Of a DNA stretch of 38,596 nucleotides, positions 11,022 through 33,451 are shown piece by piece. Made by a program: the position numbers and the translations under genes. This DNA is from Patescibacteria group bacterium (lineage in GTDB: Bacteria > Patescibacteriota > Patescibacteriia > UBA2591 > UBA4787), in NCBI GenBank assembly GCA_028715115.1, contig JAQUSN010000001.1, forward strand, positions 347,150 to 385,745, written 5' to 3'. The first letter of the stretch is position 1. Each line of letters starts with the position of its first letter. The notes beneath the pieces are model-generated. The model searched no databases and was not told where the DNA came from. It was given only the letters and a program-made list of their open reading frames with translations.

Positions 11022-12719
11022 ATGTCTATTTTTAAATCAAACTCCAAGCCAACCTTGGCCAGCGACGAAACAGCAGAAAAGCTTCAGAACCGGCTGGAAG
11101 ATATTCAGGGCAAAGAACTTGAAGAGCAAACTAACCAACGGGCCTTTACTCTAGGATTGCCTTATATTAATTTAACCGCCTTCCCAATAGCGCCCGAAGC
11201 GTTAGCTTTAGTTTCCGAAGAAGACGCTAAGCAATATCACATTATTTGTTTTTATAAAAATGATCGCGAAGCTAAATTGGCCACCATTGATCCCGAAAGC
11301 CACTCTATGGCTGAATTTCGCGCTAATTTTGGCCACGCTCATGATCTTAAAACTGAGCTATATTTAATTTCATCGCTCAGCTTTAATCATGCTTATAAAT
11401 TATATGCTGCTTTACCCAAGGTCAGCAAAATAATTCAGGGCGTTGAGATTAAAGAAGAAGATTTGAAAAAATTTCAAGCGCAGATTTCTAATTTTTCCGA
11501 CTTAAATCAGCAAATTCAAAAAGTTTCTATTTCTGATTTATTAACCCTGCTTATTGCCAGCGCCATTCAATCGCGGAGTTCTGATGTCCACATTGAAGCC
11601 GAAGAAAATGAGATAAAAATAAGGTTTAGAATCGATGGCGTGTTAATTGAAGTTGCCGCTTTGGCCAAAAAACTTTGGCCACAGGTAATTTCTCGTTTAA
11701 AATTAATTTCCGGTCTGAAGATTAATGTCACAGATCGGCCGCAAGACGGCAGATTTACTATTTATTTAACTGACGACAAGGTTGATGTGCGTGTTTCTTG
11801 TTTACCAACTGCTTTTGGTGAAAGCGTGGTTATGCGTTTGCTTCGCTCCGCGTCGGTCGGTTTGGGCTTTGAAGATTTAGGGCTTCGTTCGCCAGCTTTT
11901 GACCAATTGTCCAAGCAAATCGTCCGGCCAAATGGCATGGTTATTACAACCGGCCCAACCGGCAGCGGTAAAACGACTACTTTATATGCAATTTTGAATA
12001 AATTAAATAATCCCGAAACTAAAATTATCACCCTCGAAGATCCGATCGAATACAAACTAAACGGTATTAATCAAAGTCAAGTTGATTATGCCAAGGATTA
12101 TACTTTTGCCAAAGGATTAAAATCGATTTTGCGCCAAGATCCGGACATAGTTATGGTCGGCGAAATACGCGACTTGGAAACAGCGGAGACTGCCATCCAG
12201 GCGGCCTTAACTGGCCACTTAGTCGTTTCTACTTTACATACCAATGATGCGGCTGGCGCCATTCCAAGATTTTTATCCATCGGCGTTAAACCATATCTTT
12301 TATCGCCGGCCTTAAATGCCATTATGGGACAACGGCTGGTGCGAAAAATTTGTTTAAGCTGTAAAAAAGAAATTACACTTGATCAAGAAGTTTTAGAAAA
12401 AGTTAAAAAATTACTAACCGACTTACCGGCAGATAAAAAGCAAGCCATTGGTTTCAATGAAAACTGGCAGCCCAAGTTTTTTACTGGTAGTGGCTGTCCG
12501 TCTTGCCATGGCCTTGGCTATCAGGGTCGCCTTGGTATTTATGAAGTTTTATTAATGTCGCCGGAAATAGAAAAGGTAATTTTGTCTGGCCAAGTTTCGG
12601 AATATCAAATGCGCGACTTAGCTAAACAGCAGGGTATGATTACTATGGCTCAGGATGGTTTGCTTAAAGCGCTTGATGGACTAACTACGGTTGACGAAGT
12701 GTTTAGGGTGGCGGAATAG
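11022..12719 (+). CDS. PilB/GspE-type secretion ATPase
   Basis: A 565-residue hexameric ATPase that powers assembly of type IV pili or a related secretion machine on the inner face of the membrane. An MshEN-like N-domain (LGLPYINLTAFPI, about residue 40) is followed by the core with Walker A GPTGSGKTTT, the Asp box LEDPIEY, Walker B GEIRDLETAETA and the His box STLHTNDAA. A four-Cys zinc site (CLSC, then CPSC) sits near the C-terminus, as in PilB. The start is set at ATG 11022, right at the element border; an in-frame TTG at 10989 reads through the inverted repeat and is not credible. No other pilus genes are in the window. It resembles PilB more than PilT because of the N-domain. Confidence 0.9.
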   Translation: MSIFKSNSKPTLASDETAEKLQNRLEDIQGKELEEQTNQRAFTLGLPYINLTAFPIAPEALALVSEEDAKQYHIICFYKNDREAKLATIDPESHSMAEFRANFGHAHDLKTELYLISSLSFNHAYKLYAALPKVSKIIQGVEIKEEDLKKFQAQISNFSDLNQQIQKVSISDLLTLLIASAIQSRSSDVHIEAEENEIKIRFRIDGVLIEVAALAKKLWPQVISRLKLISGLKINVTDRPQDGRFTIYLTDDKVDVRVSCLPTAFGESVVMRLLRSASVGLGFEDLGLRSPAFDQLSKQIVRPNGMVITTGPTGSGKTTTLYAILNKLNNPETKIITLEDPIEYKLNGINQSQVDYAKDYTFAKGLKSILRQDPDIVMVGEIRDLETAETAIQAALTGHLVVSTLHTNDAAGAIPRFLSIGVKPYLLSPALNAIMGQRLVRKICLSCKKEITLDQEVLEKVKKLLTDLPADKKQAIGFNENWQPKFFTGSGCPSCHGLGYQGRLGIYEVLLMSPEIEKVILSGQVSEYQMRDLAKQQGMITMAQDGLLKALDGLTTVDEVFRVAE

Positions 12720-30790: not shown

Positions 30791-30823
30791 CGTAATTAAT
30801 GTTACTCCTCCTTACGTCGGAGT
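30791..30823 (+). promoter_or_regulatory. possible structured leader of rplU
   Basis: Two interleaved stems can form: CGTAA / TTACG (30791-30795, 30812-30816) and ACTCC / GGAGT (30804-30808, 30819-30823). They would make a pseudoknot or two alternatives. This may be an L21 autoregulatory leader; evidence is weak. Confidence 0.35.
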
Positions 30824-30859
30824 GCTCAAAATTATGGAAGAAACTTACGAACTTCGTTC

Positions 30860-30884
30860 TAAATTTTTTAATAATTTTGGTATG
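30860..30884 (+). repeat. 25-base start-site repeat, copy 2
   Basis: Identical to 30111-30135 and again ending at the true start codon, here that of rplU. Confidence 0.7.
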
Positions 30885-31202
30885 AATTTCGCGATTATCA
30901 AAACTGGCGGCAAACAATATTTAGTCAAAGTTGGCCAAACTTTATTTTTTGAAAAATTAGCCGGCGCTAAAGATAAAAATTATTCTTTTGACCAGGTTCT
31001 TCTCGTTGGCGATGAGAAGGGCGAAGTGGTTAAAATCGGCAAGCCATATTTATCCGGCGCGAGCGTGGATGCCGAAATTTTAGGCCAGATCAAAGGACCC
31101 AAGGTTCACGTGATGAAATTTAAAAGCAAGGTTCGCTATCATCGTAATGTCGGCCATCGCCAACAGCTGACTAAGGCAAAAATCACCAAGATTACTGCAT
31201 AA
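30882..31202 (+). CDS. rplU: 50S ribosomal protein L21
   Basis: L21 binds 23S rRNA in the large subunit. The 106-residue protein starts NFAIIKTGGKQYLVKVGQ, the family N-terminus. Its C-terminus carries the signature KVHVMKFKSKVRYHRNVGHRQQLTKAKI (in parts), with the conserved basic loop. The frame is open from an ATG at 30822, but the first 20 codons do not match L21, so 30882 is chosen. The usual partner rpmA (L27) is not next to it; a strong terminator and a noncoding region follow instead. Confidence 0.95.
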   Translation: MNFAIIKTGGKQYLVKVGQTLFFEKLAGAKDKNYSFDQVLLVGDEKGEVVKIGKPYLSGASVDAEILGQIKGPKVHVMKFKSKVRYHRNVGHRQQLTKAKITKITA

Positions 31203-31226: not shown

Positions 31227-31254
31227 AACGGGCGTTAATGCGCCCGTTTTTGTT
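31227..31254 (+). terminator. terminator after rplU
   Basis: Stem ACGGGCG / CGCCCGT, with a loop of about 6 bases (TTAATG), is followed by TTTTTG. It is a canonical Rho-independent site. Confidence 0.85.
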
Positions 31255-31282: not shown

Positions 31283-31311
31283 TTGACAATTTTTATAAAA
31301 TATAATAATAT
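31283..31311 (+). promoter_or_regulatory. promoter of the large noncoding RNA
   Basis: TTGACA (31283-31288) and TAATAT (31306-31311) with a 17-base spacer, inside an AT-rich stretch that ends just where the GC-rich region begins. Confidence 0.7.
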
Positions 31312-31317
31312 TATAAT

Positions 31318-32139
31318 TGTCTCAGAGACACCCTCCATTTCTGCGCCTCTGAGATGGTCAGGATTAAAACTCCTGATTCGCCGGAAGAGGCTAGAGCATC
31401 GAAATTCACTCACACAGTGGTTTCGGGAGAAACTTCCTCAAGAAGCGGAGGGTCACCACGTCGGGCGGGCTTGTTTTGAGCCGGCATCCAAATACCTCGT
31501 GCGGCAGGTCTACTGTCCAACCACGAGAACATCGGCCGGCCTGCGCCCATACGTCCTCTGGAGGTGTGAGAAGGGTGTTTCATCTCTCTCTTGTGCCCGA
31601 GGATGGGTGCCCGACGATACAGCGTGGCCGCTTTATGCGCGCCACATCGCAACCGCGGATCATGCGCCCTCGGAATGTGGGGCGCATTACAACGGGAGCT
31701 AAGAGCTCGGCTTCTCAAACCGGCTCGGTCAAAGCCGGCTCAGAATGCTCCGCTTTCATAACCGCGGTTTCTACACACGCATCGCCGCTGTTCCGGCTGC
31801 GAGACGAGTCTGGAGTTCGGCGGAGTCTCAACCCCGCGAATATCCGATAGTCTCGGGATTTGCTCGACCTCGGGCATCCCCACATATGCCTTGAACATCC
31901 CGGCGATTGCAAGGCGACCAGCCCACTAGGCGGTCGCAAAACCCCCGATCAGGAATGTTGCTGACCCCTCTAAGTAGTGGCGAGCGAATGTGGAGAGGGC
32001 AGAACTTCCGCCGGGGACCAACGCAGAGCTCAGACATAGGCCGCTATCGGGTGCGAACGCCTTCGCATTCGGAGCCAGCCTTTCTGGCATCTGCACGTCC
32101 GACATGCGGGCGGCCCCTTGGCCGCCCGCTCTTCTTTGT
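31318..32139 (+). ncRNA. candidate large structured noncoding RNA, about 820 nt
   Basis: This GC-rich block stands out from its AT-rich surroundings and begins right after a promoter and ends in a strong terminator. Open frames in it are short, overlap on both strands and match nothing recognisable. Many local hairpins can be read: CTCAGAG / CTCTGAG (31321, 31347), TCAGGA / TCCTGA (31358, 31371), CTCGTG / CACGAG (31496, 31522) nested in CCGGC / GCCGG (31481, 31535), ATGCGCCC / GGGCGCAT (31662, 31680), CCGGCT / AGCCGG (31720, 31733), GCGACC / GGTCGC (31914, 31932), CCCTCT / AGAGGG (31966, 31994), TGCGAA / TTCGCA (32052, 32062), GCCAG / CTGGC (32074, 32084). It lacks the marks of tmRNA, RNase P RNA and SRP RNA. 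Size and style recall GOLLD- or ROOL-type giant RNAs, but I cannot assign a class. Confidence 0.7.
32106..32139 (+). terminator. terminator of the large noncoding RNA
   Basis: Perfect 10-bp stem GCGGGCGGCC / GGCCGCCCGC (32106-32115, 32120-32129) with a CCTT loop, followed by TCTTCTTTGTTTT. Confidence 0.85.
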
Positions 32140-32171
32140 TTTAATTAGAAATTAATGCACAGGCAAAAACC

Positions 32172-32199
32172 TTGACTATATTCTAAAAAACATTATTAA
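32172..32199 (+). promoter_or_regulatory. promoter of the second noncoding RNA
   Basis: TTGACT (32172-32177) and TATTAA (32194-32199) with a 16-base spacer. TAATAT at 32197-32202 is an alternative -10. Confidence 0.55.
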
Positions 32200-32207
32200 T
32201 ATATATT

Positions 32208-32382
32208 GATCGAATCTCAATCACCGAGCGGCTATATAGCACTCATGGAGGTAGCTAGCCGTAAAGCTGGGTAAAGGGCGACTACTTTTGCGCTTAGCCA
32301 GTTGTCCCTAGCATCGGTGAACACGCTTTGTGCGTGAGTACCCCCTGGGGCCGGGCAGCTATGCTGTTCGGCCCTTTTCTTT
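32208..32382 (+). ncRNA. candidate small structured noncoding RNA, about 175 nt
   Basis: A second GC-rich unit with its own promoter and terminator. A 7-bp stem TCACCGA / TCGGTGA (32221-32227, 32314-32320) closes a domain holding CGGCTA / TAGCCG (32229-32234, 32256-32261) and CTGG / CCAG (32267-32270, 32298-32301). Bases GGG (32276-32278) could pair with CCC (32306-32308) to form a pseudoknot. A hairpin CACGC / GCGTG (32322, 32332) and the terminator follow. I see no SRP, 6S, tmRNA or RNase P signature. No protein frame of note is present. It could also be a leader of mutM, but the terminator lies between them. Confidence 0.65.
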
Positions 32383-32386
32383 TATA
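32348..32386 (+). terminator. terminator of the second noncoding RNA
   Basis: A stem of 12 pairs, GGGCCGGGCAGC / GCTGTTCGGCCC, including two G-U pairs, with a TAT loop, followed by TTTTCTTTT. Confidence 0.85.
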
Positions 32387-32467
32387 TTAGCCCTTGAAAT
32401 ATTTTAGCGAATAAGCTATACTTTAATAATTAATATTTTACTTCATGAATTTTATTAAAAAATTTTT

Positions 32468-33310
32468 ATGCCCGAATTACCAGAGGTCGAAACAATAAAA
32501 ACTCAGCTTAATAAAAAAATTCGTGACAAAAAAATAAAATTAGTCGAAATTCATTTGGGTAAAATACTGCAGGGCGTTTCTGAAGAAAAATTCAAAAAAA
32601 TTGTCACCGATAAAAAAATAAAAAACATCGAACGCCGAGCCAAGTTAATAATTATAAATTTATCGGGAGGATTTTCGATAGTAGTTCATCTTAAAATGAC
32701 GGGCCAACTTTTGTACTTTAAAAATCAACAGACCTTCGAAAATTATCAAAATAAAAAAGGCGCGCACTTTGTTTATAATTTTACCGATGGGAGCTTAATA
32801 GCACACCTTGATACGCGCCAATTCGGTTACGTAAAAATTTTAAAAACCAAAGACTTGGATAATCTTTTTAAAAAAGAAGCGTTCGGTCCGGAACCCTTGG
32901 CAAAAAATTTTACTTTAAAAGTTTTCAAAAATTTATTAACTAAAAGACCCAGGACAAAAATTAAACCGCTTTTAATGGATCAGGCTTTTATCGCCGGCGT
33001 AGGCAATATTTACGCTCAAGAAGCTTGTTGGGCGGCTAAAATTTTTCCCACTCGCACAGCGCAAAGTTTGACTTCGCAAGAAGTTCGCGCTCTTTATCTA
33101 AATTTAATTAAAATATTATGCTTGGCGGTCAGTTGCCGCGGATCGTCGGTCGATAATTATCTTGATACTGAAGGTAAGCAAGGTGAGTATGTGCCGCGCT
33201 TAAAGGTTTATAATCGTGAAGGAGAAAGGTGTTATCGCGGAGACGGCGTGGTAAAAAAAATGACCTTAGCCGGACGAGGAACCTATTATTGTCCAAATTG
33301 TCAAAAATAA
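32468..33310 (+). CDS. mutM: formamidopyrimidine-DNA glycosylase (Fpg/MutM)
   Basis: MutM removes 8-oxoguanine and other oxidised purines and cuts the abasic site. The 280-residue protein starts PELPEVETI, with Pro2 as the nucleophile and Glu3 catalytic. Lys in HLKMTGQL and the helix-two-turn-helix segment around AGVGNIYAQEACW fit the family. The C-terminal zinc finger is unusual: Cys255, Cys275 and Cys278 are present (GRGTYYCPNCQK), but the expected second Cys is Gly258 (CYRG). The finger may be metal-poor or use another ligand. The start ATG 32468 is certain, because Pro2 must follow it. Confidence 0.95.
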   Translation: MPELPEVETIKTQLNKKIRDKKIKLVEIHLGKILQGVSEEKFKKIVTDKKIKNIERRAKLIIINLSGGFSIVVHLKMTGQLLYFKNQQTFENYQNKKGAHFVYNFTDGSLIAHLDTRQFGYVKILKTKDLDNLFKKEAFGPEPLAKNFTLKVFKNLLTKRPRTKIKPLLMDQAFIAGVGNIYAQEACWAAKIFPTRTAQSLTSQEVRALYLNLIKILCLAVSCRGSSVDNYLDTEGKQGEYVPRLKVYNREGERCYRGDGVVKKMTLAGRGTYYCPNCQK

Positions 33311-33378: not shown

Positions 33379-33451
33379 CGGGGTATAGCGTAACGGCTAA
33401 CGCGCTCGCTTCGGGTGCGAGAGACTCTGGGTTCAAATCCCAGTACCCCGA
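33379..33451 (+). tRNA. tRNA-Pro (anticodon CGG)
   Basis: Acceptor stem CGGGGTA / TACCCCG with the C1-G72 pair typical of bacterial tRNA-Pro. The anticodon arm is CTCGC-TTCGGGT-GCGAG, giving anticodon CGG. The T arm is CTGGG-TTCAAAT-CCCAG. The discriminator is A and no CCA is encoded. It reads CCG codons. Confidence 0.93.

Follow-up and report, generated by a model that had tools for sequence, protein, structure and literature searches.

The stretch of Patescibacteria DNA analysed here (the window; 38,596 nucleotides) carries, between the genes rplU and mutM, a GC-rich block at 31318-32139 that is very probably a genuine noncoding RNA gene. Its neighbourhood comprises lepA, a YidC-family insertase, rplU and mutM, with no phage genes recognised nearby, and a tRNA-Glu lies 2.0 kb downstream. 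Directly after the block stands a second, smaller RNA-like unit. The features of the locus are as follows.

30822-31202, + strand: rplU (ribosomal protein bL21), upstream neighbour (Pfam PF00829, E 4.6e-33)
31228-31249, + strand: terminator-like hairpin of rplU (AACGGGCG/CGCCCGTT) followed by TTT, between rplU and the block (read from the sequence)
31283-31311, + strand: promoter of the large RNA, TTGACA-17-TAATAT (promoter scan, 10/12 consensus positions)
31318-32139, + strand: candidate large noncoding RNA gene, ~790-820 nt, its start inferred from the promoter
32106-32139, + strand: intrinsic terminator of the large RNA, a 10-bp all-GC hairpin at 32106-32129 and then a T-rich tail
32172-32200, + strand: possible weak promoter for the second RNA, TTGACT-17-ATTAAT (visible in the sequence but not reported by the promoter scan)
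32205-32380, + strand: second candidate noncoding RNA, ~175 nt, closed by TCACCGA/TCGGTGA (fold z -2.6)
32347-32375, + strand: strong terminator of the second RNA (terminator scan)
32468-33310, + strand: mutM (formamidopyrimidine-DNA glycosylase), downstream neighbour (Pfam PF01149, PF06831)
33379-33451, + strand: tRNA-Pro(CGG), 1.2 kb downstream of the large RNA

Structured RNA genes typically stand out as GC-rich in AT-rich DNA. At 58.7% over 31318-32100, the GC content of the block is close to that of the genome's 47 tRNAs (56.7%) and far above that of the genome (38.6%) and of the flanks (16-23%), bearing out an initial annotation of the window that had described a GC-rich block in AT-rich DNA; the promoter and the terminator that it had placed at 31283-31311 and 32106-32139 were both recovered. 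Because rplU ends in a terminator-like hairpin of its own and a promoter and terminator frame the block, the latter reads as a separate unit, and on this architecture it would be transcribed independently.

A protein gene at the block was considered and rejected, as the sequence has neither codon periodicity nor a protein family nor a positive hexamer score. Its period-3 power is 0.57, compared with 0.76 for shuffled sequences and 2.7-6.4 for neighbouring genes, GC is evenly spread across all three codon positions, and the longest stop-free run does not significantly exceed that of shuffles (p 0.13). None of the six open reading frames on the two strands of the block matched Pfam, PHROGs or NCBIfam, and each has a hexamer coding score below zero. 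The earlier statement that the block holds no convincing protein therefore withstood a search for the protein family or coding signature that would have contradicted it.

The plus strand of the block folds with a z score of -7.5 at 822 nt, terminator included, and -4.5 without the terminator, and 0 of 20 shuffles folded as well; the minus strand gives -3.4 and -2.4 with and without the terminator region. Fixed 250-nt windows of the block reach modest z scores only (about -1 to -3, unexceptional in this genome on a scan too coarse to rank the block), so that the fold signal resides in the whole molecule, and stronger local folding is seen in other intergenic windows of the same genome. The minimum-energy structure contains 28 stems of at least 5 bp, 19 of them with a mean pairing probability above 0.8, where at least ten hairpins with stems of 5-10 bp had been read by eye in the initial annotation. 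One predicted 8-bp helix closes a 640-nt multibranched domain, and a further domain at the 5′ end is predicted to be closed by 31330-31336/31447-31453; close to the 5′ end, UCUCAGAG and CUCUGAGA can also be read from the sequence as possible 8-bp partners, whose pairing would form a pseudoknot across this 5′ domain. The elements of the predicted fold on which the argument below turns are these.

31460-31467, + strand: 5′ strand of the 8-bp helix closing the 640-nt multibranched domain (pairing probability 0.97)
31942-32016, + strand: arm ending in an H18-like hairpin (basal helix 31943-31947/32012-32016, probability 0.99; apical helix 31968-31972/31991-31995, probability 0.96)
31973-31988, + strand: 23S rRNA domain I (H18-like) loop AGTAGTGGCGAGCGAA, 16 nt found without change in the 23S of this genome
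32096-32103, + strand: 3′ strand of the domain-closing 8-bp helix, partner of 31460-31467, just before the terminator

The 16 nucleotides at 31973-31988 (AGUAGUGGCGAGCGAA) match a conserved loop of the 23S rRNA of this genome (C1:168589) letter for letter, which was the one clear match in a BLAST search against its own rRNA, and occur nowhere else in the genome besides 23S, even when two mismatches are allowed. From the 23S map we take this domain I hairpin loop to be that of H18, hence 'H18-like'. In the block the 16-mer is predicted to cap a stem (probability 0.96) with which a 75-nt arm ends, so that the hairpin context of the 23S loop is retained along with its sequence. The loop can be read as a G-bulged AGUA/GAA motif, two base pairs (G-C and U-G) and a GGCGA pentaloop. 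The pattern that we use to define the loop outside rRNA is AGUAGYGGCGAGCGAA closed by a stem, and 31973-31988 fits it. Opposite the variable Y stands a G, and either base at Y, C or U, can thus pair with it (C-G or U-G). Beyond this hairpin the block has no likeness to 23S; a reading of the block as a fragment of whole 23S was rejected, a single hairpin being common to both.

It is very unlikely that the block is a real RNA gene whose 16-nt likeness to 23S is coincidental. A shared word of at least 16 nt is moderately rare by chance (6/5000 shuffles, 3/995 genome pieces), and a frequency of about 0.1-0.3% among comparable sequences leaves coincidence some room; yet the match coincides with exactly one conserved loop, placed in a hairpin as it is in 23S, and the same loop recurs flanked by stems in noncoding contexts of other Patescibacteria and of phages, as described below.

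Few large structured RNAs are known from bacteria, and most of these have no assigned function. No Rfam covariance model reached its gathering score in the block and none gave a credible match at E up to 10, so that the model search that the initial annotation had proposed as a check places the block in no Rfam family. Even with E allowed to reach 10, cmscan finds none of RNase P, SRP, 6S and tmRNA in the block, in keeping with the earlier remark that it lacks the marks of tmRNA, SRP RNA and RNase P RNA; the comparison then drawn with GOLLD, ROOL and OLE holds for size but not for family, as none of the three models matched at the gathering score or at E up to 10. A stand-alone RNA of ~800 nt, structured and noncoding, is still the best reading of the block, as first proposed, although the H18-like hairpin at 31973-31988 and the second RNA unit had been overlooked.

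A highly diverged housekeeping RNA, with RNase P RNA as the obvious candidate, is an extremely improbable identity for the block. The idea draws on the genome itself, in which RF00010 and RF00011 have no match at E up to 10, whereas 20 of 24 relatives searched have an RNase P RNA; yet the cmscan of the block lists none, no P4 consensus (CR-I/CR-V) is seen in it, and the tmRNA lies elsewhere (C2:27727-28076). As the assembly is 98.6% complete and in three contigs, the RNase P RNA gene may lie in a gap.

Searches with blastn for homologues of the whole block, covering its own genome, 96 relatives, the order, 380 genomes of the phylum, phages and plasmids, returned only 23S fragments and chance matches, in a thinly sampled lineage (one other genome in the family, zero others in the genus). 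Gene order around rplU is not preserved across 29 relatives, and position is therefore no guide for locating the RNA in them. The lack of a homologue among the relatives searched, together with a base composition unlike that of the genome, could be taken to mean that no functional RNA is encoded here and that the GC-rich DNA is foreign or in decay, such as a dead gene or rRNA debris. We consider this quite improbable: the block shows no sign of periodicity or of similarity to proteins, its rRNA likeness is confined to one hairpin, and it is framed by a promoter and terminator, passes into AT-rich sequence at both ends and folds better than its shuffles.

Scans of the genome collection, the phylum and the class found the bulk of motif matches in other genomes to be 23S, and four Patescibacteria genomes to contain non-23S copies of the loop beyond the 23S copy of each. 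These lie in small RNAs of ~110-150 nt. That of L153 follows tRNA-Pro and tRNA-Met and has a closing stem and a terminator; that of L252 has a closing stem (TTTGAAATATT/AATATTTCAAA) and a terminator; that of L290 has a promoter, a closing stem and a strong terminator; and that of L224 (3658-3815) carries the loop twice in tandem, each copy on a stem of its own, within a closing stem (CTCATCGGT/ACCGATGAG) followed by a T-run. None of the four matches Rfam, and all are dissimilar to 23S outside the loop. They share with the block the same loop on a stem, a unit that ends in a terminator or T-run and the same phylum, but differ in length (the block has ~800 nt) and have nothing alignable with it outside the loop: no alignable sequence beyond the hairpin was found between the block and any other loop-bearing RNA, and MAFFT gave no useful alignment of the short hairpins. 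When these four genomes and the block's own are taken together, two of the five have one base at Y in the RNA and another in the host 23S, so not all copies are fresh from host 23S.

Viral contigs were scanned for the same 16-mer (33 loci, of which 28 remain after removal of 23S contamination) and for the reversed motif as a control (46 loci). The raw count is not enriched (33 versus 46), and enrichment is seen in context only: a tRNA lies within 3 kb of 9/28 real loci versus 0/46 controls (Fisher p 6e-5), a flanking helix of at least 5 bp is present at 10/28 versus 3/46 (p 0.003), and the open frame is shorter than 100 codons at 11/28 versus 4/46 (p 0.002), counts that are not fully independent because some loci are near-duplicates (L104/L105, L091/L106, L102/L107 and L110/L111). 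Several of the copies in large phages lie within tRNA-rich noncoding regions, long stretches around the loop lack codon periodicity in L121, L114 and L104, and in the homologous pairs L091/L106 and L114/L121 the loop is kept exactly while the flanks have diverged. Across 20 non-rRNA, noncoding copies that were not chosen for their stems, and in which the loop is constant by design of the search, the flanking helix lengths sum to 103, whereas 20,000 permutations of the flanks averaged 59 and never exceeded 86 (p < 5e-5). The stem of the loop hairpin is retained by compensatory change among copies, and such variation with compensation is what a genuine hairpin module is expected to show.

GOLLD and ROOL, whose structures have been solved by cryo-EM, occur in tRNA-rich phage regions, and GOLLD has been reported ribosome-bound in pull-downs (PMC12286853). 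The block resembles them in its size of 600-800+ nt, its extensive structure and its nearby tRNA genes, the last a weak likeness because mutM stands between; it differs in matching neither model, in its chromosomal housekeeping setting, with no sign of a phage or prophage among its neighbours, and in its 23S-like hairpin. It could be a self-assembling large RNA of this type, with the H18-like hairpin serving merely as a stable building block and having no ribosomal partner. Size, fold and the helix that closes the 640-nt domain are compatible with this, as are the tRNA genes beginning 1.2 kb downstream and the placement of several phage loop copies in tRNA-rich noncoding regions, as published for GOLLD and ROOL (PMC12286853). 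We nevertheless judge it unlikely, given that GOLLD, ROOL and OLE all fail to match in Rfam and that, with the caveat that copies were sought by exact match, the exact GGCGA pentaloop in unrelated RNAs and the tandem copies in L224 suggest recognition more than stability alone.

Our preferred reading, which we hold at about even strength, is that the block would encode a large structured RNA that presents an H18-like hairpin to a protein of the large ribosomal subunit or to a factor in its assembly. Its parts differ in strength. The hairpin is probably a genuine functional mimic; that it binds a ribosomal protein or assembly factor is a possibility that we place at, or slightly under, an even chance. 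In the mechanism we propose, the large RNA would act as a scaffold displaying a 23S domain I-type hairpin at the tip of an arm, the hairpin would be a docking site for a protein whose binding site in the 50S subunit is this loop, and the RNA might either titrate the docked protein or be tethered by it. Among ribosomal proteins, L4 and L24 bind the 5′ domains early (PMC2672003), but we found no statement on the H18-like loop. OLE RNA, which has been proposed to sequester RpsU in a pocket resembling the ribosomal one (PMC12286853), provides a precedent for a large RNA that mimics the site of a ribosomal protein. It is likewise a large RNA, and its proposed ribosomal-site mimicry is the same kind of idea; the block differs in having no match to the OLE model and in that the part mimicked is a 23S hairpin of the large subunit.

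More tentatively, and with less confidence than for the block itself, the scattered loop-bearing RNAs of Patescibacteria and large phages might constitute a group of rRNA mimics of ~110-800 nt that share the H18-like loop and would bind ribosomal proteins or assembly factors, with the block as the giant chromosomal form; it is part of the same tentative reading that some phage members may also display the 23S GTPase-associated-centre hairpin. We found no earlier report of such rRNA-mimic RNAs in the literature searched, whose coverage excludes many journals. Large RNAs as such are already known, but neither a large RNA that displays a hairpin of 23S nor the scattered small RNAs that bear its loop seem to have been described in that literature, and there is a real chance that the H18-like loop marks a new RNA class. 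An exact ribosomal loop that recurs with compensating stems offers a testable handle on a giant RNA; should the loop prove to recruit a ribosomal protein or an assembly factor, the giant RNA would gain a molecular role, and this would suggest that phages and bacteria with tiny genomes alike influence translation with fragments of rRNA placed outside the ribosome.

Several further observations concern other RNA loci. The second RNA unit beside the block (32160-32390) has no Rfam family and no blast relative. Strong local folding occurs in other long intergenic stretches of the genome (for example C1:391362, C2:27625, C1:285650 and C2:178397), C2:27727-28076 being the tmRNA, which lies outside the block. 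RNase P RNA went undetected in all contigs of the genome, which may reflect a gap, strong divergence or real loss. Two matches to orphan RNA families were recorded for C1 of the same genome, one to DUF3800-V at L041:2083-2179 (82 bits) and one to LOOT at L048:4957-5078 (81 bits).

Among the viral loci, L092 has on its reverse strand, ~185 nt upstream of the loop, a look-alike of the 23S GTPase-associated centre (GGAAGCAGCTATTCATCTAAGGGGTGCGTAACAGCTCAC) that adjoins tRNA-like genes with inserts, as judged by eye. In L104 an exact 21-nt 23S hairpin (ATGTTGGCTTAGAAGCAGCCA) lies upstream of the loop, ~808 nt upstream of position 12357, in an order reversed relative to 23S, and a type-P5 twister and a tmRNA follow downstream. 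Finally, the viral loci L093:930-1075 and L102:140-295 resemble tRNA genes, but where the anticodon arm would lie they seem to have an insert of ~100 nt that holds the loop.
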